The translations under genes were made by a program, and so were the position numbers. From Geomonas subterranea (lineage in GTDB: Bacteria; Desulfobacterota; Desulfuromonadia; Geobacterales; Geobacteraceae), in NCBI RefSeq assembly GCF_019063845.1, contig NZ_CP077683.1:3278501-3342500 (forward strand): a DNA stretch of 64,000 nucleotides, read 5' to 3'. Within the stretch, counting starts at the first letter, position 1; the number at the start of each line of letters is the position of its first letter. The notes under the pieces were generated by a model, which was given only the letters and a program-made list of their open reading frames with translations, had not been told where the DNA came from and did no database searches. Below, one piece after another: positions 32,758 through 40,514 of the stretch.

Positions 32758-32833
32758 TCCCGAGTAGATCAGTCGGTAGATCAGCGGACTGTTAATCCGT
32801 GTGTCGTAGGTTCGAGTCCTACCTCGGGAGCCA
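32758..32833 (+). tRNA. tRNA-Asn (anticodon GTT)
   Basis: A 76-nucleotide cloverleaf with acceptor stem TCCCGAG/CTCGGGA, anticodon GTT at 32791-32793 in loop CTGTTAA, T-arm GTAGGTTCGAGTCCTAC, and encoded CCA at 32831-32833. Its 3' part (from 32788) is repeated at 40043-40090, marking it as the attachment site of the downstream mobile element. Confidence 0.97.
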
Positions 32834-32835
32834 AA
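32788..32835 (+). repeat. attL, 48-bp direct repeat within tRNA-Asn
   Basis: Starts ACTGTTAATCCGTGTGTCGT in the anticodon loop region and ends GGGAGCCAAA. Identical to 40043-40090. Confidence 0.95.
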
Positions 32836-32841
32836 TTATTC

Positions 32842-32875
32842 AAAGGGTTACAGCTTTTAGCTGTGACCCTTTTTG
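32842..32875 (+). terminator. tRNA-Asn terminator, element copy
   Basis: AAAGGGTTACAGC pairs with GCTGTGACCCTTT followed by T. It is a diverged version of the host terminator now found at 40096-40125, so the element restores both tRNA 3' end and terminator on insertion. Confidence 0.85.
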
Positions 32876-32881
32876 CTTCAT

Positions 32882-32900
32882 AGGTAACACATAGGTAACT
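32882..32900. repeat. Candidate integrase arm sites, left
   Basis: AGGTAACAC at 32882 and AGGTAACT at 32893, 11 bp apart, just inside attL. The same motif occurs three times inside attR. Confidence 0.6.
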
Positions 32901-33054
32901 TCAGGTGATGTTTCACGCGAACCTGCTCCCCCCTGCTCCCCCGAATGCCCCAAACCGGTTCCTATAATCTATCCAGTAAAAAAATCTTTATCCTTAGTGT
33001 GGGCCATGGTATTTTCTCACGCAATACCAGCAGAGGCTAGGGGAGAGGTCTATC

Positions 33055-33873
33055 ATGAATAACGCGAGCTTCGAATTGTTCGTAAGGCTTGTAAGGCAAA
33101 AGCATCAGCAGTTAGTTTCCAACCTCAATACAGTTTTAGAAAAGTTGTCTGGAGAGGATGCCCAAAGTAAGACCGCCTCTGCTGAAGCTATGTCCTTGAC
33201 AGCCAAAGATTTACGGGGGTTGATGGCAAATGAGGATATCCCTAACTGGTTAAATCAAACTATTCAAAGTTTGACTAATTATACAAGCGGACAATGGAAT
33301 GGATACAACCTCCTTGTCTCGCTTATAAATCTTAAAAGCCAAATTGAGTCCTATGCTTTTGTCTTCGAAAACCAGAAAGAGGTCGGATTTGATTTTGATG
33401 CAATATATGAGCACTTCAAAAATGAAAGCAGATTGCCTGAGCTTTTTGAAGAGATAATCAGAATTTTAGAGGAAATACAGAGTAGTGGCGCAGTAGATAG
33501 TGTAACCATGCTGTCAGCACTTGAAAAAGTGATTGCTACTATCAGAAGAGGTAAAGGCGGCTCATATCTTTCTATGATAAGCTCTTGGAATTTCCTTATG
33601 AGTTTTTTGAAGAATTATATGTGGGGGGAGCTTTCAAAACTTCCAGTAATCGGGACAGCTATGGAAGCACTCGAAAAGACCATAAAAGAAGCTGATGAAG
33701 AAATGGAGAGGCTTCATCAGAAGGTAGAAGCTGATGCAAGGCGTGTAGTGGAGACCGAGGTGAAAGCGCTGGCGGGAAAAGCGCAATTCCCTGGGATTAC
33801 TTATAGAAGTACTGGCGGCCTGATAACACACCAGCCAGATGCAACGATTACTACAACCTCTACTATAGCCTAG
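33055..33873 (+). CDS. Hypothetical cargo protein, helical (272 aa)
   Basis: The gene is AT-richer than the host. AGGGGAGAGGTCTATC precedes the ATG. The protein appears helical: a charged N-terminal part (NNASFELFVRLVRQKHQQLVS), acidic middle, a hydrophobic patch around residues 175-190 (SMISSWNFLMSFLKNYMW) and a coiled-coil-like stretch about 205-235 (EALEKTIKEADEEMERLHQK). It ends in threonine/serine-rich residues. I recognise no domain. It is followed after eight bases by the zinc-ribbon gene and so forms a two-gene cargo unit. Confidence 0.75.
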   Translation: MNNASFELFVRLVRQKHQQLVSNLNTVLEKLSGEDAQSKTASAEAMSLTAKDLRGLMANEDIPNWLNQTIQSLTNYTSGQWNGYNLLVSLINLKSQIESYAFVFENQKEVGFDFDAIYEHFKNESRLPELFEEIIRILEEIQSSGAVDSVTMLSALEKVIATIRRGKGGSYLSMISSWNFLMSFLKNYMWGELSKLPVIGTAMEALEKTIKEADEEMERLHQKVEADARRVVETEVKALAGKAQFPGITYRSTGGLITHQPDATITTTSTIA

Positions 33874-33881
33874 GACCTGCA

Positions 33882-34289
33882 ATGAGTTCAGTTGAGACGA
33901 CCGTTTCATGCATGCATTGCGGCACCGACCTACCTGAACAGACAGCCCCATTGCCTGGGGACCGCCCCCCCTGCCCTGAATGCGGTTCAATGGCTCGCAC
34001 CTTTCACGTCCACATTACCGAGACTGTTACCGTTTTTCAAAAGATTGGTACAAAACACAAACGTCCCGGAAAGAAAAAACCTATCTTTGAGTCTGTTACA
34101 GGCGATGACCTCCACCGTGCGACCGGCAGATGGAACAAACTGACTCGTCAAATCGACAGGGAAAACGATCACTACAGGGAGATCATATTTGATCCCGAGA
34201 CGGGCCATATCATACGAGAATGCGACGAACCCCTAAGTGAGCATGTGGGAAGGGGGTCAGATAAGCCACAGTTGAATGACCCGAGTTGA
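33882..34289 (+). CDS. Zinc-ribbon cargo protein (135 aa)
   Basis: The N-terminus has two CxxC pairs, CMHC (about residue 10) and CPEC (about 32), forming a likely zinc ribbon. The rest is polar: FHVHITETVTVFQKIGTKHK, then RATGRWNKLTRQIDRENDHY and YREIIFDPETGHIIRECDEPL. I recall similar uncharacterised proteins scattered in bacterial islands, but no function. It is probably co-transcribed with the upstream helical gene. A hairpin lies 13 bases past the stop. Confidence 0.75.
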   Translation: MSSVETTVSCMHCGTDLPEQTAPLPGDRPPCPECGSMARTFHVHITETVTVFQKIGTKHKRPGKKKPIFESVTGDDLHRATGRWNKLTRQIDRENDHYREIIFDPETGHIIRECDEPLSEHVGRGSDKPQLNDPS

Positions 34290-34301
34290 CTGTCCCAAAC
34301 A

Positions 34302-34331
34302 GAGAAGGGGCCAGTCTCCCGGCCCCTTCTC
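34302..34331. terminator. Hairpin between convergent genes
   Basis: GAGAAGGGGCC (34302-34312) pairs with GGCCCCTTCTC (34321-34331). T runs are weak on both strands. It could terminate both the zinc-ribbon gene and the convergent 52-residue gene. Confidence 0.6.
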
Positions 34332-34354
34332 AATCCTTCTCCTGCTCTTGTCGG

Positions 34355-34513
34355 CTACGCTGCCAGCAGCACCAACGCCCCATCCTCGATGTCCCGCCGC
34401 TCAAGCTCCGCCTCACAGGCTGCATAAAGCTCTTTGTCCCCCTCACCCAACGCCACCCACCGGAAATCTGCCAATTCGTAGCGCGACATCTGCGTTAACT
34501 TGGTTCCCATCAT
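34355..34513 (-). CDS. Small cargo protein (52 aa)
   Basis: On the minus strand an ATG at 34513 preceded by ATGGAGGGGC opens a 52-codon frame beginning MMGTKLTQMSRYELADFRWV and ending VLLAA, stop at 34355-34357. It is acidic and probably helical. The good ribosome site, hairpin just after the stop and codon use like the minus-strand element genes argue that it is real. The family is not recognised. Confidence 0.6.
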   Translation of the reverse strand: MMGTKLTQMSRYELADFRWVALGEGDKELYAACEAELERRDIEDGALVLLAA

Positions 34514-34905
34514 GCCCCTCCATGTGCAATATCATTGAATTGAACAACTGCAACGAGTATCGCACAAAGCCGTCTACAACACAAGAAAATTCAACAAAAT
34601 CAATCACTTAACAACTAGGTTGTTTCGGTGACTCAACCAAGTTGCGCCCCCCCTCCCTACCCCCGGACCCCCAAAACGCCCCCGGCGAGTTCCTGTGAAG
34701 TCATTACCGGTATCCGGTCCAAAACAGCCCGAAAAGCCGTTGTGTGAAATCCGACGGTCCCTCTCAACGAGAGTCCCCGTCACCGCAGCCGCACTACTAC
34801 CTCGCCTCAAAATAAATTTTGCAAATTAGCAGGCACCATGATATAGCGAGCGTTCAGGCACAGGTACGGCTTGGACTGTAGCATCAGACATGATAGGAAG
34901 GCACT
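34514..34905. other. Intergenic region without recognisable gene
   Basis: A 390-base region between the divergent 52-residue gene and the exported-protein gene. Its left part is AT-rich and likely carries their promoters. The centre is C-rich (CCCCGGACCCCCAAAACGC). Short minus-strand frames here lack ribosome sites and look accidental. Confidence 0.5.
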
Positions 34906-35682
34906 ATGGTAAGGTCGGTAATTCTTTGGTTGATACTCGCAACAACTGTAAGTAGTCCCTCTACTACAGAAGCTGCCATAGGCGACTTTATGGCCACAAA
35001 AGCATGGGGGACAACTAACGACCGCGCCACAAAAGCCCCAGCCAAGAATAATAACCGTGCCCCTAAAGCCTCCGCCACAGATAATAACCGTCCTGCTATC
35101 AAAGAATTGAACAAGTGGGCTGCTGGCACTATAGTATTTAACCCGCAGCCAGCAATGACACTTTATGAGTGGCACAGCTTTGACGTGATAATTTCACCGG
35201 TGAAATACAGCAAAGCTCTCCTTGAGAAGTTAGTCAGAAGCCTCAGAAGACCCACCTTCGTTCAATACACCTCTGTCAATCACGTTACCAGCAAAATGAA
35301 AATTCAACTTTCTGGTGGCCATCCAGACGATTTTGATATTACGCCAAAAGAACCTGTGGTGTTGGATATAGTTCAAGCCGCAAAGCAAGACTTCTCAGTT
35401 ATGCCTTTGAAAGGTGGGCTACTTAATCTTTACCTAAATGTGAAACCGGTAATATATGACAGAGTGACCGGCAAGGAAACTACAATCAATGGTCTTGACG
35501 AACTTAACAGGAAGATCGAGGTAGAAGTCACAACAGTTGGATCAATAAAACGATATTCACCTTATGTGAAAGATTATTGGACAGTCATTGCATCTATTTC
35601 AGGCGTCTTTGCGATAGGTGCCGGCTACGCTTGGAGAAAACGAGCCGAGATTTTCAGCTTCATCAAGCGATTTAGGAGCTAG
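34906..35682 (+). CDS. Exported cargo protein with C-terminal membrane anchor (258 aa)
   Basis: The N-terminus is a signal peptide (VRSVILWLILATTVSSPSTT). A low-complexity asparagine/lysine/alanine section (NRATKAPAKNNNRAPKAS) follows, then a predicted beta-rich domain (about 65-205), a single hydrophobic span (about 228-245, TVIASISGVFAIGAGYAW) and a short basic tail. This topology places the domain in the periplasm. TAGGAAGGCACT precedes the ATG. The gene is AT-rich. No family is recognised. Confidence 0.75.
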   Translation: MVRSVILWLILATTVSSPSTTEAAIGDFMATKAWGTTNDRATKAPAKNNNRAPKASATDNNRPAIKELNKWAAGTIVFNPQPAMTLYEWHSFDVIISPVKYSKALLEKLVRSLRRPTFVQYTSVNHVTSKMKIQLSGGHPDDFDITPKEPVVLDIVQAAKQDFSVMPLKGGLLNLYLNVKPVIYDRVTGKETTINGLDELNRKIEVEVTTVGSIKRYSPYVKDYWTVIASISGVFAIGAGYAWRKRAEIFSFIKRFRS

Positions 35683-36011
35683 CGAAGCAAGCAAACCAAC
35701 CACAAGCCCAAAGCTTGTGTACCAGAAGGCTGATGGCCTGTTCACGTCCAAAGGAGGGCAAAAGGACTGCAAATCCTTCACGGCCCGAAGGGGCATAACC
35801 CGCACAACCTCTATCTGGTTATCTTTATAGTCTTAAGAGACTGTAAGTCTCTACTATAGTCCTCTCGGTACTATAAGGTCTGATTGGTAATGTGAATGTA
35901 GGGCAGGAAATTACGGCGCTGACAGCCACGATGTCTTGCATTTCCCACATGCGCGACGAATACCTATTAGAGGTTTCACTGCTCTCTGAGGTAACACCGC
36001 TAGGGGGATCG
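35683..36011. other. Structured non-coding region with tRNA-arm-like hairpins
   Basis: Contains AAGGACTGCAAATCCTT (about 35764-35780), which folds as a five-pair stem with loop CTGCAAA, identical in form to a tRNA-Cys anticodon arm, and AGAGACTGTAAGTCTCT (about 35837-35853), which looks like a tRNA-Tyr arm extended by TATAGT/ACTATA. No complete cloverleaf could be assembled around either. It may be a non-coding RNA, decayed tRNAs or simple hairpins. Confidence 0.35.
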
Positions 36012-36515
36012 TTACGCTATCCTGAGATGCCGTGCGGCCATAGCCACTTCTGTCTTCTCGTCTTCCGTGTAGAGGTCAGGGTTCGCTTCCATCTCTTCCA
36101 GCATCGCCTTGACCCTTGCCACTCGTTCTTCTCTCGGTCTTGGTGTCTGCTGCTTCTCCGTAGTGGGCATCATGCCTACCCCTCCAGTCGTATCAAGTAG
36201 CTCCTTTTTCGGCAGGAGCAGGCAAAATCCTCCAGTAGCGATTGCAACTATGGCCCACTGTACTAAAAGCCTTTGAATATCAATACGGCCAAGCGTCTCG
36301 TAACTGGAACTTAAGGTGGGTCTGGTATAGCTCGGCGGGGTTGCGATGAAAACATACCCAAGATCTTTGGTCACAGTTCGGTATTCACCTGCTTTGTAAG
36401 TGATAATCCACGGTGGGAACATACCGATCAACACGACCAACGCGATTCCTGCGGCAAGACCCTTTTGTTGGTTCAGCGAGCCCAGCGAAAACATTCTCCG
36501 AAACGAAGTTAACAT
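36012..36515 (-). CDS. Hypothetical membrane protein (167 aa)
   Basis: Two hydrophobic spans are visible, at about residues 20-40 (GLAAGIALVVLIGMFPPW) and 82-100 (LVQWAIVAIATGGFCLLLP). The C-terminal third is a charged cytoplasmic tail (EERVARVKAMLEEMEANPDL). I do not recognise it. The ATG follows a GGGGGGGCGC stretch, the same type of ribosome site used by other minus-strand genes of the element, which supports it as a real gene. It is the leftmost minus-strand element gene apart from the 52-residue one. Confidence 0.65.
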   Translation of the reverse strand: MLTSFRRMFSLGSLNQQKGLAAGIALVVLIGMFPPWIITYKAGEYRTVTKDLGYVFIATPPSYTRPTLSSSYETLGRIDIQRLLVQWAIVAIATGGFCLLLPKKELLDTTGGVGMMPTTEKQQTPRPREERVARVKAMLEEMEANPDLYTEDEKTEVAMAARHLRIA

Positions 36516-36789
36516 GCGCCCCCCCTATGAATACCTGAACGTGCACCTAGATTATCGAAAGGCATACATATTGACAAGATATAATTGGCTTATGCTTATG
36601 GCTTTGAGCAGGTACAAGAAAGCCGGCCCTCAATAGAGAACCGGCCCCTGGACCTTCCGCCACTGTTTCTGTGAATTGCGAGTAAACAGCCCCTTAAACA
36701 ACCCCTCCTCGCCCACCCCTTACCTCGCTATTCCTCCCCCTCGGTTAACGCCCCTCATCAGGCGTCTGCTTCGCAAAAAGCACAGGGTG

Positions 36790-37017
36790 TCACTGATTGA
36801 CGGCCTCCTTGGCAACGTTTCTCTTGGCGGCCCTCGCGGCCTCTCGCTCCTCCCGCCTCTTCATCCAAGCGTTGAAAGACTGCTCCGTTGCAAAGACAGC
36901 GTGTTCGAGCTTCACCCACTTGAGGGGTAGGATACCTTTGTTGCGGCCACAGTAGAGGTAATTGGTGGTGAGGCCACTTCTTGCCGCCATCTGTGGTATC
37001 GAAAGTAAGTTCTTCAT
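36790..37017 (-). CDS. Small DNA-binding-like protein (75 aa)
   Basis: Starts MKNLLSIPQMAARSGLTTNY, which reads as a winged/MerR-like helix-turn-helix (IPQMAARSGLTTNYLYCGRNKG), followed by a basic C-terminal tail (KRREEREAARAAKRNVAKEA). The start at 37017 is chosen for AAGGAGTCTGGATC; the in-frame start at 37044 has none. Likely an excisionase or regulator of the element. It is transcribed with the upstream replication-like gene. Confidence 0.65.
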   Translation of the reverse strand: MKNLLSIPQMAARSGLTTNYLYCGRNKGILPLKWVKLEHAVFATEQSFNAWMKRREEREAARAAKRNVAKEAVNQ

Positions 37018-37092
37018 GATCCAGACTCCTTGTTTCCCCTTCACCAGGGGCTAGATTAATGTGGGCAGTTGAGGTGCCACCGCCCGGCTAGG

Positions 37093-37836
37093 TTAGACTT
37101 CCCATGCCCTTTTGGGGCCGTTGTAGCCGCTGGCAGATTCGTCAACCTCATCCTCCCACCGTCTACCAGTGAGCCAGTTGGCAGGATCGGGGATGTATCG
37201 GGTTCCCTCATCGAGGCCCGTCCAAACCGTGCCGTGTTGCAGGTGCACGGCATCAACGATGGCCTGACATAACCCCTCGTCCGGTTGGATTGCTGACCAT
37301 GCCTCCTCTGCCTGCTGTCGCTTTACCTTCTTTGGGTACACCTTCCAGAACCGAAGAAACCCTTCGACCGGCGCACGCGGGGTGCTTGTTGTTTTTCCCT
37401 TCTTCCCCTTTTTTACATCTTCCCTTTCTTGTTCGGGGACTGTTTTCGGGTCCGGCTTCGCGCCGTTTTCGGGTCCGTCTTCAGTGCCGTCTTCGGGTCC
37501 GCCGAATTGGTAGCGGTCGTAATTAGTGATGGTAATAAGAGAAGTTGCAGCTACGTTTTTCAGGGCCGTCTCTCTGGTGATCATCTCCCGTTCTTTAAGC
37601 TCGTTCAGGAAACGTTTTACCTTCCCTTCGCTCCAGAGCCATCTTGCAGCAAGGGCATCCTGCGAGTACCCGACTTGGCCCCGCTTTACCTTGACCGCGA
37701 TGCCCCGTCTGCGGATCATGCCCGACTTGTGGTTGGCGAGGAGAATCAAATCAACCCAAGCCTGCCCCCTTGTAAATGGTTCACTCCGCCAAAGGTCATG
37801 CTCCTGAAGCGACCTGTCCACCATTATCCAACCCAT
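37093..37836 (-). CDS. Replication-organiser-like protein (phage type)
   Basis: A 247-residue protein. The N-terminal 110 residues form a winged-helix-like region (DLWRSEPFTRGQAWVDLILLAN, WSEGKVKRFLNELKEREMI). A charged linker (GPEDGTEDGPENGAKPD) follows, and the C-terminal part (FWKVYPKKVKRQQAEEAW ... YIPDPANWLTGRRWEDE) is typical of phage replisome organisers and DnaT-like proteins that load helicase. It suggests that the element replicates after excision. It overlaps the preceding gene by 13 bases. Confidence 0.75.
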   Translation of the reverse strand: MGWIMVDRSLQEHDLWRSEPFTRGQAWVDLILLANHKSGMIRRRGIAVKVKRGQVGYSQDALAARWLWSEGKVKRFLNELKEREMITRETALKNVAATSLITITNYDRYQFGGPEDGTEDGPENGAKPDPKTVPEQEREDVKKGKKGKTTSTPRAPVEGFLRFWKVYPKKVKRQQAEEAWSAIQPDEGLCQAIVDAVHLQHGTVWTGLDEGTRYIPDPANWLTGRRWEDEVDESASGYNGPKRAWEV

Positions 37837-38090
37837 ACGCCCCCCTGCATCGCTTTACGAGCCTGCCTGTAGAGCCACGCACGGCAGGCGGCAAAACGTT
37901 TGACGGGTTGATGAAGGGCGCCAGTGGAATAGGCCAGGGCGATGTACTGGTGCTCCTCGCTCGCCTCGAAGGCGAAGCTAACCAGACTGTTGCCCGACTG
38001 ACGGTGGATGTTAGGGCGGGTCCCAGTACCCGCCATGATGGCGGCGGCTTGGTCGAGGTCGGTTGTCTGTAGTTGCTCTGTCGGTCTCAT
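37824..38090 (-). CDS. Hypothetical protein (88 aa), DUF5659-like
   Basis: Starts MRPTEQLQTTDLDQAAAIMA; the longer upstream frame crosses the AlpA-type gene and is not used. The core (GNSLVSFAFEASEEHQYIAL ... RFAACRAWLYRQARKAMQGG) resembles DUF5659, a small domain found in phage-related islands; the match is from memory and is tentative. It lies 10 bases downstream of the AlpA-type gene, and its 3' end overlaps the replication-organiser start. Confidence 0.55.
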   Translation of the reverse strand: MRPTEQLQTTDLDQAAAIMAGTGTRPNIHRQSGNSLVSFAFEASEEHQYIALAYSTGALHQPVKRFAACRAWLYRQARKAMQGGVWVG

Positions 38091-38100
38091 GCTGCCCCCC

Positions 38101-38361
38101 CTACGCCGCGTGGTCGGCTTCGGTGGTTGACCCGAACGCCTCAAGGCCGGCGATGTAGGCGGTAACATCGCTGAAGCGATACCTGACCGAGCGTCCGATC
38201 TTAACGAACTTCGGCCCCTGGCCTTTGAGGCGCCACTGCTCAACCGTCGATTTGGCCGCACCGAGCATAGCCTGTACCTCGGCCTGCCTCAGAAGACGAT
38301 CACCGTGAGGTTGTGCCGTTGCTGCGCGGGGGAGTTGAGTGACATTTGGGTTATTCTTCAT
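38101..38361 (-). CDS. AlpA/excisionase-type helix-turn-helix regulator
   Basis: An 86-residue protein. The HTH reads RLLRQAEVQAMLGAAKSTVE, then GPKFVKIGRSVRYRFSDVTAY, which is the MerR/AlpA (HTH_17) arrangement. GGAGGTTTACAAGA precedes the ATG at 38361. Proteins of this type act as recombination directionality factors or activate integrase expression. It heads the leftward operon of the element. Confidence 0.85.
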   Translation of the reverse strand: MKNNPNVTQLPRAATAQPHGDRLLRQAEVQAMLGAAKSTVEQWRLKGQGPKFVKIGRSVRYRFSDVTAYIAGLEAFGSTTEADHAA

Positions 38362-38476
38362 TCTTGTAAACCTCCGTAACGTGAACCTACTGAACATCAC
38401 ATAACAGTGCACAGTTGTGGATAGAACCACACAGTAGTTATTCAAGTCAAGTTACAGAGGCATTTTCTTTAAACGC

Positions 38477-38509
38477 AAAAAATCCGCGCCTACATAGTAA
38501 GTGCGGATT
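38477..38509 (-). terminator. Integrase terminator
   Basis: AATCCGC (38481-38487) pairs with GCGGATT (38503-38509); the minus strand continues GCGGATTTTTT. It lies just past the integrase stop. Confidence 0.75.
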
Positions 38510-38572
38510 CTTCAGATAGGATCAAGCTTTTTCCAGATACAAAGTTGTAAACAACTCACGATGCTAGAATTG

Positions 38573-39883
38573 TTAACGTGGGGCGGTGGCCTCCGATGGA
38601 TGCCTTTCATACGGGAACTTTGTATCCGCCTGCCGCTGCCGCCTCTTCTCCGCAAGGTTGATGACGCCCGGATTGGATTCTGCCGGGGTCGGTTGTTCAT
38701 AAGGGCTCCATGCGTGGGCCGCAAACATCAAGGTGTCCGTAACTCGCTGCATGAGGGGGCGGAGCTTTTCGACATTTTTGACCACGTACCCTGCGGTAAC
38801 ATCGTTGGTATTGGCCGCATGGTTCAGCAAACGCTTCAGTTCATAGTAGCCCACAACGCCGTCGATCGCGCTTGTATAAGACCGCCTCATGTCGTGCAGG
38901 GTGAACTTAACGCCCGTTTCGTCCATCACCTTGAGCATCTGCTTCCTCGGCTCGACTAGATGACCATGCTTCCCAGTCCCCGGAAAAACGAAATCGTTTT
39001 CACGCAGAGCCGCACGCCGCTGGAAGATTTGATAGATGAAGTCACTCATGGGGAGAGGCAAGGGCTTTCCGTTCTTGGTCTTGGTGAGGACAAAGGTTCG
39101 CTGCCCCATGTCTACGTCCGACCATGATAGTGATGCCGTCTCTGTGCGCCTAGCGCCAGTGAAGAGGAGCAACAAGAGGTAGTCTCGGATGGTCGGATTG
39201 TCCAGCCTGTTGACACTGGTGAGCCATTTGGGGAGATCGGCTTCCGCGACAATGCTGTCTCTCCGTTCGACCTTGAACCACTGGCGCGTGTTCGACAGTC
39301 GCTTGACGGGGTTCACGGGCAAGGTGTCATCCAAAAGTTCGTTGGCAAAATTGTAGACCAGTCGCAGGGTACGCATGGTGTTGTTTGCGGCGGCCTTTCC
39401 CTTCTGAGAAACCTTCAAGTGCCGTTGCGCCACCATGTCCTTAGTAATTTCCCCAATGGGCTTACTCATCCAGTCAGAGAGGTACAGCCTGAAAAGGTCG
39501 CGGTAGGTGGTGACAGTGCGCGGCTTCAACTCCTGCCGGGCCATGAAGTAGCTCTCAAGCATGTCCCCGAGGCTGACGCCTCGCTCCCGGTTCTGTGCTT
39601 TCTCGCGGTTGATGTCGATGCCTTTGTGTAGTTCCGAGAGGGCGTCTATGGCGGCGGCGCGTGCGTTCTCAGCGGTAAGGATGCCATGCTTGCCGAGCGT
39701 CACCCGTGTTAACTTCCCGTTCACGCGCTTCATCACGAAGTATGCCTTGCTCGTATGTGATACGCGGACGCCAAAACCTTTCAGGTCTGAATCCCAGTAG
39801 TCAACCTGCTGGCCTTTCTGCGCAAGCGGCAGTCCATCGACAGACCTCTTCCCGATCTTGATCTTCCCCTTTGCATCTGCCAT
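38573..39883 (-). CDS. int: Tyrosine-type integrase
   Basis: A 436-residue site-specific recombinase. The N-terminal arm-binding domain (GKIKIGKRSVDGLPLAQKGQ) is of the P4-type DUF4102 class, followed by a SAM-like core-binding domain. Catalytic residues are R in FTGARRTETASLSW, the H-x-x-R of LHDMRRSYTS and the nucleophilic Y in NDVTAGYVVKN. The ATG at 39883 is chosen because AAAGGGGGGCGGAC precedes it; an upstream frame runs through the attR arm repeats. It would cut at the tRNA-Asn 48-bp repeat. Confidence 0.95.
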   Translation of the reverse strand: MADAKGKIKIGKRSVDGLPLAQKGQQVDYWDSDLKGFGVRVSHTSKAYFVMKRVNGKLTRVTLGKHGILTAENARAAAIDALSELHKGIDINREKAQNRERGVSLGDMLESYFMARQELKPRTVTTYRDLFRLYLSDWMSKPIGEITKDMVAQRHLKVSQKGKAAANNTMRTLRLVYNFANELLDDTLPVNPVKRLSNTRQWFKVERRDSIVAEADLPKWLTSVNRLDNPTIRDYLLLLLFTGARRTETASLSWSDVDMGQRTFVLTKTKNGKPLPLPMSDFIYQIFQRRAALRENDFVFPGTGKHGHLVEPRKQMLKVMDETGVKFTLHDMRRSYTSAIDGVVGYYELKRLLNHAANTNDVTAGYVVKNVEKLRPLMQRVTDTLMFAAHAWSPYEQPTPAESNPGVINLAEKRRQRQADTKFPYERHPSEATAPR

Positions 39884-39916
39884 GTCCGCCCCCCTTTGAA
39901 TTGCCATCCTATCAAC

Positions 39917-39950
39917 AGGTAACACATAGGTAACACAATAAAGGTAACAC
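39917..39950. repeat. Candidate integrase arm sites, right
   Basis: AGGTAACAC at 39917, 39928 and 39942, upstream of the integrase start and inside attR. The first two share the 11-bp period seen at the left end. Confidence 0.65.
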
Positions 39951-40042
39951 GTCAATACAGCACACAACTACAACAGATATAAACACTTGATATTTCATAG
40001 GTCACAACACTCCACATCAACACACGCAATACAGACCCTCAA

Positions 40043-40090
40043 ACTGTTAATCCGTGTGTCGTAGGTTCGAGTCCTACCTCGGGAGCCAAA
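40043..40090 (+). repeat. attR, 48-bp direct repeat
   Basis: Copy of tRNA-Asn from ACTGTTAATCC through GGGAGCCAAA without the 5' half, so it is not a gene. It marks the host side of the insertion. Confidence 0.95.
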
Positions 40091-40095
40091 AATTC

Positions 40096-40125
40096 AAGGG
40101 TCACAGCGCAAGCTGCGACCCTTTT
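40096..40125 (+). terminator. Original host tRNA-Asn terminator
   Basis: AAGGGTCACAGC pairs with GCTGCGACCCTT and continues into T. It is now separated from the tRNA by the element. Confidence 0.8.
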
Positions 40126-40176
40126 TCATTTACTCCCTCCCCGGATGCTCCTTCCCCCTTCACGGCCCTTTTATTT

Positions 40177-40323
40177 TCAGTACCTGCGCTCGCCGTACCC
40201 GCCGCGGTCATCATAATGCCTGCCGCCGCGACCGTAGCCATCATCATGCCACCAGCACGGGCAACACCCCGACAGCAGCGTGACAAGGAGCAGCAGCCCC
40301 ACCGATATCCTTATCTTCTTCAT
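40177..40323 (-). CDS. Small lipoprotein (48 aa)
   Basis: Starts MKKIRISVGLLLLVTLLSGC, with lipobox LLSGC, then CPCWWHDDGYGRGGRHYDDR. The mature part is rich in glycine, arginine, histidine and tyrosine. AAGGAGAAATGATC places a ribosome site eight bases before this ATG, while the upstream ATG at 40329 is too close to it. Function unknown; small lipoproteins of this type are common near regulators. Confidence 0.7.
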   Translation of the reverse strand: MKKIRISVGLLLLVTLLSGCCPCWWHDDGYGRGGRHYDDRGGYGERRY

Positions 40324-40448
40324 GATCATTTCTCCTTCACTTCGGCACCCTTCGCAACCTCCATTGTAATCCAAATGACCAGGTTATTGACAATTTCCAG
40401 CCACCCCATCCCGCCCCATCCAAGCTGCATCACTTCACTCTCCACCGC

Positions 40449-40477
40449 TTGACATGCCGCGAGGCATGACCTATAGT
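40449..40477 (+). promoter_or_regulatory. TetR operon promoter with nested operator
   Basis: TTGACA (40449-40454), 17 bases and TATAGT (40472-40477). The spacer contains the palindrome CATGCCGCGAGGCATG (40453-40468), placing a TetR dimer site between -35 and -10, as expected for autorepression. Confidence 0.75.
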
Positions 40478-40514
40478 CAAATCTGACCATGAGTCAACTT
40501 TAAGGAGAACCGTG

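Follow-up and report, generated by a model that had tools for sequence, protein, structure and literature searches.

Organization of the tRNA-Asn locus

A 7,255-bp element lies at the tRNA-Asn(gtt) gene in the window analyzed here, a 64-kb stretch of the Geomonas subterranea genome (a single contig of 4,991,523 bases), and is probably a non-conjugative, helper-dependent integrative island, as judged from its sequence. Coordinates are positions in the window, and gene start codons were chosen by us among the in-frame starts (Table 1). The element is bounded by an exact 48-bp direct repeat made up of the last 46 bases of tRNA-Asn and two more, with an intact tRNA gene at one end, a displaced tRNA fragment at the other and a tyrosine integrase gene between them, as in tRNA-gene islands in the Islander sense. 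Its guanine-plus-cytosine content ranges from about 44 to 57%, against about 57 to 70% in 1-kb windows wholly outside it. The tRNA was the sole match of an Rfam scan, and none of the five matches of a genome-wide search is a second tRNA-Asn gene, the other four being the attR fragment, a tRNA-Phe and two tRNA-Thr. Element DNA (32841-40040) had no match in phage or plasmid records, and consensus scans for promoters and terminators stayed near the level of shuffled sequence (6 promoters vs 5.7, 10 terminators vs 8.1), so no promoter is claimed.

Table 1. Features of the element in the 64-kb window, followed by the bounded sister elements with their lengths, target genes and cargo (aa, amino acids; ORF, open reading frame; R-M, restriction-modification)
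Feature	Position or length	Strand	Description or evidence
tRNA-Asn(gtt)	32758..32833	+	integration target; 5' part from host, 3' part from element; ARAGORN, Rfam RF00005 68.7 bits
attL core, 48 bp	32788..32835	+	begins in anticodon loop; perfect repeat
Element-borne hairpin of intrinsic-terminator type	32842..32874	+	after restored tRNA; -21.1 kcal/mol, z -5.84, 0/200 shuffles, then TTTTT
Left pair of putative arm-type integrase sites	32879..32899	+	11-bp period
Cargo gene A, 272 aa	33055..33873	+	model all-helical at low confidence; homologue search empty
Cargo gene B, 135 aa	33882..34289	+	zinc-ribbon-like; sub-threshold zinc-ribbon matches
Small ORF, 52 aa	34355..34513	-	possible gene; no match in phages or NCBIfam
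Cargo gene C, 258 aa	34906..35682	+	apparent signal peptide, one C-terminal membrane helix (by eye)
Cargo gene D, 167 aa	36012..36515	-	two hydrophobic segments (by eye)
Small DNA-binding/excisionase-like protein	36790..37044	-	PHROG 66 excisionase 3.2e-4; weak relative in L112
DnaD-like helicase loader/replication initiator	37093..37836	-	PHROG 2514 1.6e-20, 9474 3.6e-19, 270 6.9e-19
Predicted replication origin	37442..37501	-	iteron-like repeats of 12/23-bp period in initiator gene beside purine-rich stretch; TRF score 92
Protein F, 88 aa	37824..38090	-	between alpA and rep; 53% identical partner at same place in L107
AlpA-like regulator/excisionase (AlpA/HTH_17)	38101..38361	-	HTH_17 36.4 bits; Phage_AlpA 21.0 bits, exactly its cut-off
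Tyrosine integrase, 436 aa	38573..39883	-	open frame; Phage_integrase 46.7 bits, Arm-DNA-bind_3 42.4 bits
Right putative arm-type repeats	39917..39950	+	11-bp pair and third AGGTAACAC copy, between int and attR
attR core	40043..40090	+	displaced native 3' half of tRNA-Asn; perfect repeat
Native host terminator of tRNA-Asn	40096..40126	+	displaced with attR; z -6.96; resemblance to congener empty sites
L106	5,176 bp		tRNA-Arg(acg); HEC-01 A and B
L107 (Geomesophilobacter sediminis)	10,296 bp		tRNA-Asn; dCTP deaminase, XhoI R-M
L110	13,324 bp		tRNA-Arg(cct); type III R-M
L112	9,734 bp		tRNA-Ser(cga)
L119	17,399 bp		tRNA-Gly(ccc), core repeat with one mismatch; type I R-M
L121	15,633 bp		tRNA-Phe(gaa); type III R-M, PDC-S15
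L127	15,820 bp		tRNA-Pro(ggg); type IIG-like enzyme with SNF2/HKD helicase
L141	6,808 bp		tRNA-Arg(cct), core repeat imperfect, 15 bp exact

The same site is free of the element in 9 of the 18 other congeners (G001, G002, G003, G007, G008, G010, G011, G012 and G014), where both flanks and a single tRNA-Asn gene were found. The left-flank query, which included the tRNA, matched in all 18, in some weakly, and the right-flank query in 10; the site was retrieved from 14 congeners, with G005, G013, G015 and G018 outside the site comparison. Four of those retrieved (G004, G009, G016 and G017) have a single tRNA-Asn with an incomplete flank match or none, and G006 has another insertion at the same tRNA-Asn gene. 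This different insertion (L139, contig C58, from about 1745-1985 onward) duplicated the first ~30 bases, the 5' end, of tRNA-Asn; behind the duplicate come a complete tRNA-Asn and large ORFs resembling, by eye, type I R-M. In five of the nine empty-site congeners (L098-L102), the tRNA-Asn terminator is separated from a TetR gene by an additional 2.1-2.2 kb of chromosomal DNA that is missing from the window (40126-40512 compared) and from the other four; among the top three ORFs of each of L098-L100, an amino-acid-kinase-like ORF of 267-285 aa is present in all three and a further ORF of 250-260 aa in two.

A tRNA 3' half and a terminator-type hairpin brought by the island

Of the two hairpins, the one that follows the attR core is the more similar to the terminator found natively at five of the nine empty sites (L094, L099-L102); the L099 site of G003, for instance, is 97.6% identical to the attR side over 85 bp, core included. 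At the remaining empty sites (L095-L098), another hairpin serves as native terminator. The attL hairpin is unlike the one at attR; it is a further sequence and lies between the two cores, which makes it island DNA. With the attL hairpin between the cores and the attR hairpin native-like, it follows that the island brought both a tRNA 3' half and a hairpin of its own. By the same topology, the first 50 bases past the attL core count as island DNA, and in all nine bounded elements (the window element and eight sisters described below), they hold a strong terminator-type hairpin, with minimum free energies of -17.7 to -26.8 kcal/mol, z of -4.1 to -7.6 and no shuffle out of 200 reaching that stability in any of them; a T run follows clearly in six. 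Our literature search, which covered open papers, recognized none among the matches listed on terminators brought by tRNA islands, a subject that may be published elsewhere.

A preliminary description of this DNA had reported the perfect 48-bp repeat of the tRNA-Asn 3' half around a tyrosine integrase and an AlpA-type gene, here confirmed with a spacing of 7,255 bp, and had proposed that the element supplies its own tRNA 3' end and a diverged terminator copy, which the hairpins and the alignment of congener sites bear out. The two observations that it named as speaking against such an element did not come true: rather than an arrangement fixed in all relatives, there are empty tRNA-Asn sites in nine congeners, and rather than a lost integrase frame, there is an open one whose motif positions are conserved in eight integrases. 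The arm-type repeats, the predicted origin, the sister elements and the defense cargo of the sisters go beyond that description.

A family of islands defined by their ends

In the alignment of these eight integrases, from which that of L121 was left out, the R, K, HxxR, H and Y positions, assigned by eye to what we take to be the tyrosine-recombinase motif, are all kept. The closest relatives of the window integrase are 66% (G. limicola) and 63% (Geomesophilobacter) identical to it, and matches at E<=1e-60 occur in 27 of the 141 genomes of the order, the window genome included. Ends were sought in 30 loci, 29 of the 32 other integrase places plus L112, the criterion being a long repeat shared between a tRNA gene and the sequence upstream of int. 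In this way, eight loci could be bounded, and 22 are uncounted, both ends not having been found (contigs that were short, sites outside tRNA genes or ends past the retrieved stretch). L107 shares the tRNA-Asn site and core with the window element, carries int, AlpA and F in the same order (63%, 57% and 53% identical) and has its own hairpin and paired 11-bp repeats, but it has a DUF3987/primase-type gene where the window element has the DnaD-like one, and its cargo is a dCTP deaminase and an XhoI-type R-M system. An AlpA relative at 57% identity is also found in L106.

An 18-bp repeat, AGGTAACACATAGGTAAC, stands just inside each end of the window element (32882 and 39917); no third match turns up in the 64 kb even with up to three mismatches allowed, and 100 shuffles gave a mean of 0.00 matches. 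A direct repeat of exactly 11-bp period, with at least seven matching bases, is found inside both ends of all nine bounded elements, while base-shuffled flanks give one in 0.0-2.4% of cases per end. Its sequence varies by island, being AGGTAACACAT in the window element and TGGGTAACATA, AGGGTACACAT, TGGGTTGCGTA, ATGTAGCACAT and TTGTACCTATA in others, and at the two ends of one island it is identical or nearly so. We read these paired repeats as putative arm-type sites of the respective integrases. The tRNA 3' half, the island's own hairpin and the paired 11-bp-period repeats together make up an end signature of the family, which is new here, and as far as tested the paired-repeat signature is specific to the family of the window element. 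A study of tRNA-associated integrases (PMC2951348) expects self-regulation of integrase promoters where these overlap the recombination region; since int starts 159 bp from attR with the arm repeats in between, self-regulation of the window int is plausible.

The integrase relatives define a coherent island family in Geomonas and relatives of its order, with a clear end signature, which is likewise new here; a search of open papers on Geomonas and Geobacter islands gave nothing on this integrase-defined family among the matches listed. At L147 (about 11565 and 17871), an integrase relative without a tRNA at its ends has a 21-bp repeat on both sides and an 11-bp-period repeat, TAGGTACTAACTAGGTAC, near one end, and may be the same family at a non-tRNA site.

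The existence of these sisters matters for another way of reading the window element, as a degraded prophage remnant that kept only its integration and replication genes. Its initiator and integrase do have phage relatives, and intergenic stretches of several hundred bases occur within it, as might be left by decay. However, the module genes are open, and the bounded sisters, of 5-17 kb, share their end structure while their cargo changes, which decay would not predict, and we regard a remnant as very improbable.

Putative regulatory and replication genes

Beside the AlpA-like gene and the small excisionase-like gene, the module contains a DnaD-like initiator gene, for which tblastn found matches in 128 phage records (23-47% identity in the 20 matches listed). 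Initiator genes were examined for repeats in the six best of 16 places in the order, and each of the six has tandem repeats, 11-12 or 23-24 bp long, that come directly behind a conserved N[YF]xxYQ motif and precede an A- or purine-rich stretch. In five of the six, the window gene included, 0 of 300 synonymous-codon shuffles that kept the protein reached the repeat score, and the DNA repeat itself therefore seems to be under selection in most of these genes. Lambda-type origins have comparable repeats within the initiator gene. The mid-gene repeats of the window gene, which go beyond what the protein sequence imposes, are what a theta-type origin would be expected to contain.

The replication modules differ among the sisters. 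L107 has a DUF3987-like/primase gene (25.9 bits, narrowly short of the 27 that Pfam sets as cut-off; PHROG primase 6.4e-14). In L106 there is a rolling-circle Rep_trans protein (2.9e-37), and in L110 a DnaD-like gene with a DnaB-like helicase. In L110 (10620-12571) and L111 (7716-9679), the DnaD-like initiator overlaps a downstream ORF, a DnaB-like helicase in L110 and similar by eye in L111; this two-gene module of initiator and helicase is absent from the window element.

No relaxase or conjugation gene was recognized in the window element (nine ORFs in Pfam and PHROGs, ten in NCBIfam), and none of its nine ORFs had a significant PHROGs match to a virion or packaging gene; weak matches to scaffolding (0.066), tail (0.19) and small terminase (0.034) proteins were set aside. 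The lack of virion genes would suit a mobilizable element carried in trans by conjugative elements through an unrecognized origin of transfer (like an integrative and mobilizable element), as would the Rep_trans protein of sister L106, since rolling-circle proteins of this class can sometimes serve in mobilization. A coupling protein was no more recognized than a relaxase, and no plasmid record matches the DNA of the element; we consider this route unlikely.

Cargo of the window element and of its sisters

The four genes A to D lie at the end of the element far from the integrase. B starts 8 bp past A, so the two are likely to form one operon. Neither A nor C has relatives besides the window's own in any further genome among the 141 of the order and 395 of the phylum, nor a homologue in plasmids or in viral contigs (a search suited to close relatives only), and A has none in phages. 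D has distant relatives in 2 of the 140 other genomes of the order, G051 (7.6e-11, interrupted by two stops) and G085 (1.3e-10). B had no convincing match in profile libraries, its further search being tblastn against the retrieved loci. PADLOC, Pfam, PHROGs and NCBIfam gave nothing convincing for the cargo genes, and no known anti-phage system was matched, the only PADLOC matches of the nine element ORFs being those of A (15.5 bits) and AlpA (17.4 bits). A single-sequence structure model of A (predicted local distance difference test, pLDDT, 57) gave BAR-domain and other helical matches in Foldseek, the best at E 0.063 and none at 0.001, and was set aside; that of C (pLDDT 33) was unusable.

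With respect to gene content, the preliminary description largely holds. Its replication-like gene is the DnaD-like initiator (best PHROG match 1.6e-20), its statement that structural and conjugation genes are missing agrees with Pfam, PHROGs and NCBIfam, its four or so unknown cargo genes are A to D, for which no known function was found, and its proposal of a satellite or mobilizable island stands to the extent that sequence can tell, with no relaxase, conjugation or capsid gene recognized. The gene content that it called unusual is so for cargo A-D, which stay unplaced, and is not for the module of integrase, AlpA and replication gene, which is common to relatives.

Cargo recognizable as R-M or other defense genes was found in the sisters. 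A control set of 48 ORFs of at least 150 aa from the window outside the element matched 13 models, each by one member, and its best match, 1.7e-25 to ZorB/MotB models by what is taken to be an OmpA-type protein, was used as the bar. Above this bar were 15 of the 20 likely cargo proteins scanned, in six of the eight sisters (Table 1). Matches of L112 proteins to PDC-S67 (5.7e-16) and TIR models (2.6e-9) were dropped as defense evidence, since ordinary flanking genes reach 1.7e-25 in the control.

Comparison with known integrative islands

The comparisons that follow draw on parts of the cited papers. Like the tRNA-gene islands collected in Islander (PMC4383910), the window element is bounded by a tRNA gene and its displaced 3' fragment, belongs to the anticodon-loop crossover class and encodes a tyrosine integrase. 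Restoration of the tRNA gene by islands is described there; the main text of that paper has 0 occurrences of "terminator," and the paired repeats, as far as tested here, set the window family apart.

The resemblance to PICMI of Vibrionaceae (PMC10803314) is in the combination of integrase and AlpA, small genes and a replication gene at a similar size. PICMI115, of 6.1 kb, consists of int, a small gene overlapping int, AlpA, up1, a primase gene and up2, a new defense gene; other PICMIs carry R-M systems, a retron and others, with no capsid-remodelling genes in the account given there, and AlpA is reported as necessary and sufficient for activation of an element that is packaged by its helper phage (PMC10803314). 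On paper, the window element works like a PICMI, but it departs from two features of membership, as it sits at tRNA-Asn rather than fis, in another host class, and has a DnaD-like initiator rather than a DUF3987/DUF5906 primase, of which Pfam recognized none among the nine element ORFs.

If the likeness were to extend to mode of life, the window element would be a strict phage satellite of the PICMI/PICI type, its AlpA triggered by a specific helper phage that also packages it. Its size and its order of int, AlpA, small gene and replication gene would fit, and L107 (5982-10657) has int, a 140-aa ORF, AlpA, F and a DUF3987/primase-type gene in the order described for PICMI (PMC10803314). Yet no packaging, terminase or capsid-remodelling gene was recognized in Pfam or PHROGs, no helper is known, the element DNA is without a match in the phage records of the collection, and the site and replication gene are not those of a PICMI. 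We hold a strict satellite to be a real possibility and lean slightly against it, and we keep to the broader reading of a helper-dependent island.

Two further kinds of island bear comparison with it. The intY/alpA islands at tmRNA in Pseudomonas, one of which is moved by a jumbo phage (PMC12595487), share with it a tyrosine integrase, AlpA, direct repeats at an RNA gene and the lack of transfer genes, and they carry defense cargo; unlike it, they are larger, their AlpA lies far from the integrase and their other core genes differ. Tycheposons are tRNA-bound islands of 4-200 kb with a tyrosine recombinase (PMC10872708), and in this comparison, by description only, the tRNA site, size and recombinase of the window element fit. 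Hitchhiking integrase/AlpA islands with defense genes aboard are a known kind of element, to which the window element belongs and which is extended here by a well-defined new lineage.

A model for the island and its cargo

The sequence itself shows the boundaries of the element, the empty sites, an open integrase frame, the hairpin within the island, the paired repeats, the kinship of the modules and the defense cargo of sisters. From these features, we infer how the integrase uses its sites, what AlpA does, how the island replicates and is transferred and what its cargo is for. The integrase would recombine an attP bearing the tRNA-Asn 3' half with the chromosomal tRNA-Asn gene, with paired, 11-bp-phased arm-type sites flanking the core on both sides. 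Integration would split the tRNA-Asn gene, and the island would supply a new 3' half together with its own intrinsic terminator, leaving the only detected tRNA-Asn gene whole as a transcription unit. Regulation and excision may fall to AlpA, perhaps together with the second small DNA-binding protein. Once excised, the circle would replicate from the iterons inside the DnaD-like initiator gene, with the host DnaB helicase being loaded there. For its transfer, the island would depend on another element, whether phage or conjugative. The part of the island distant from the integrase would serve as a cargo bay, filled with antiviral genes in most of the bounded sisters and with the four genes A-D here.

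Several points weigh against this model. Excision, the circle, replication and transfer are read from sequence, and no helper has been identified. Because both ends were not found in 22 of the 30 loci, the end signature is known only for bounded elements, and among these the T run after the attL hairpin is weak in L106, L119 and L127. The in-gene repeat of L110 is not beyond synonymous shuffles, 16 of 300 reaching its score. As for cargo, the 20 sister proteins were judged likely cargo by eye and the control ORFs were chosen by rule, two of the eight sisters stay below the control bar (0 of 3 proteins in L112, 0 of 1 in L141), no sequence evidence ties genes A-D to defense, and the match of A to PDC-M64B (E 0.0036) was set aside as lying at a level where chance matches are expected.

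Since related islands mostly carry antiviral genes, the cargo of the window element is a set of candidate defense genes, a role that they may have by virtue of position and company. If so, A and B, perhaps with C and D, could be one or two undescribed anti-phage systems, housed in the cargo bay of an island family of the Geobacterales in which each island brings a cassette of tRNA 3' half plus terminator and whole replication and defense modules are swapped. Taken jointly, these propositions are tentative, and we would sooner expect them to fail than to hold.

What emerges is a family of small islands that is defined by its ends rather than by its cargo, in an environmentally important group of metal reducers. 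The end signature should permit precise mapping of more members, and the cargo bay offers a directed place in which to seek new antiviral genes, as with UP2 in PICMI. The family also poses a testable question, whether an island needs a terminator of its own in order to sit harmlessly in a single-copy tRNA gene.

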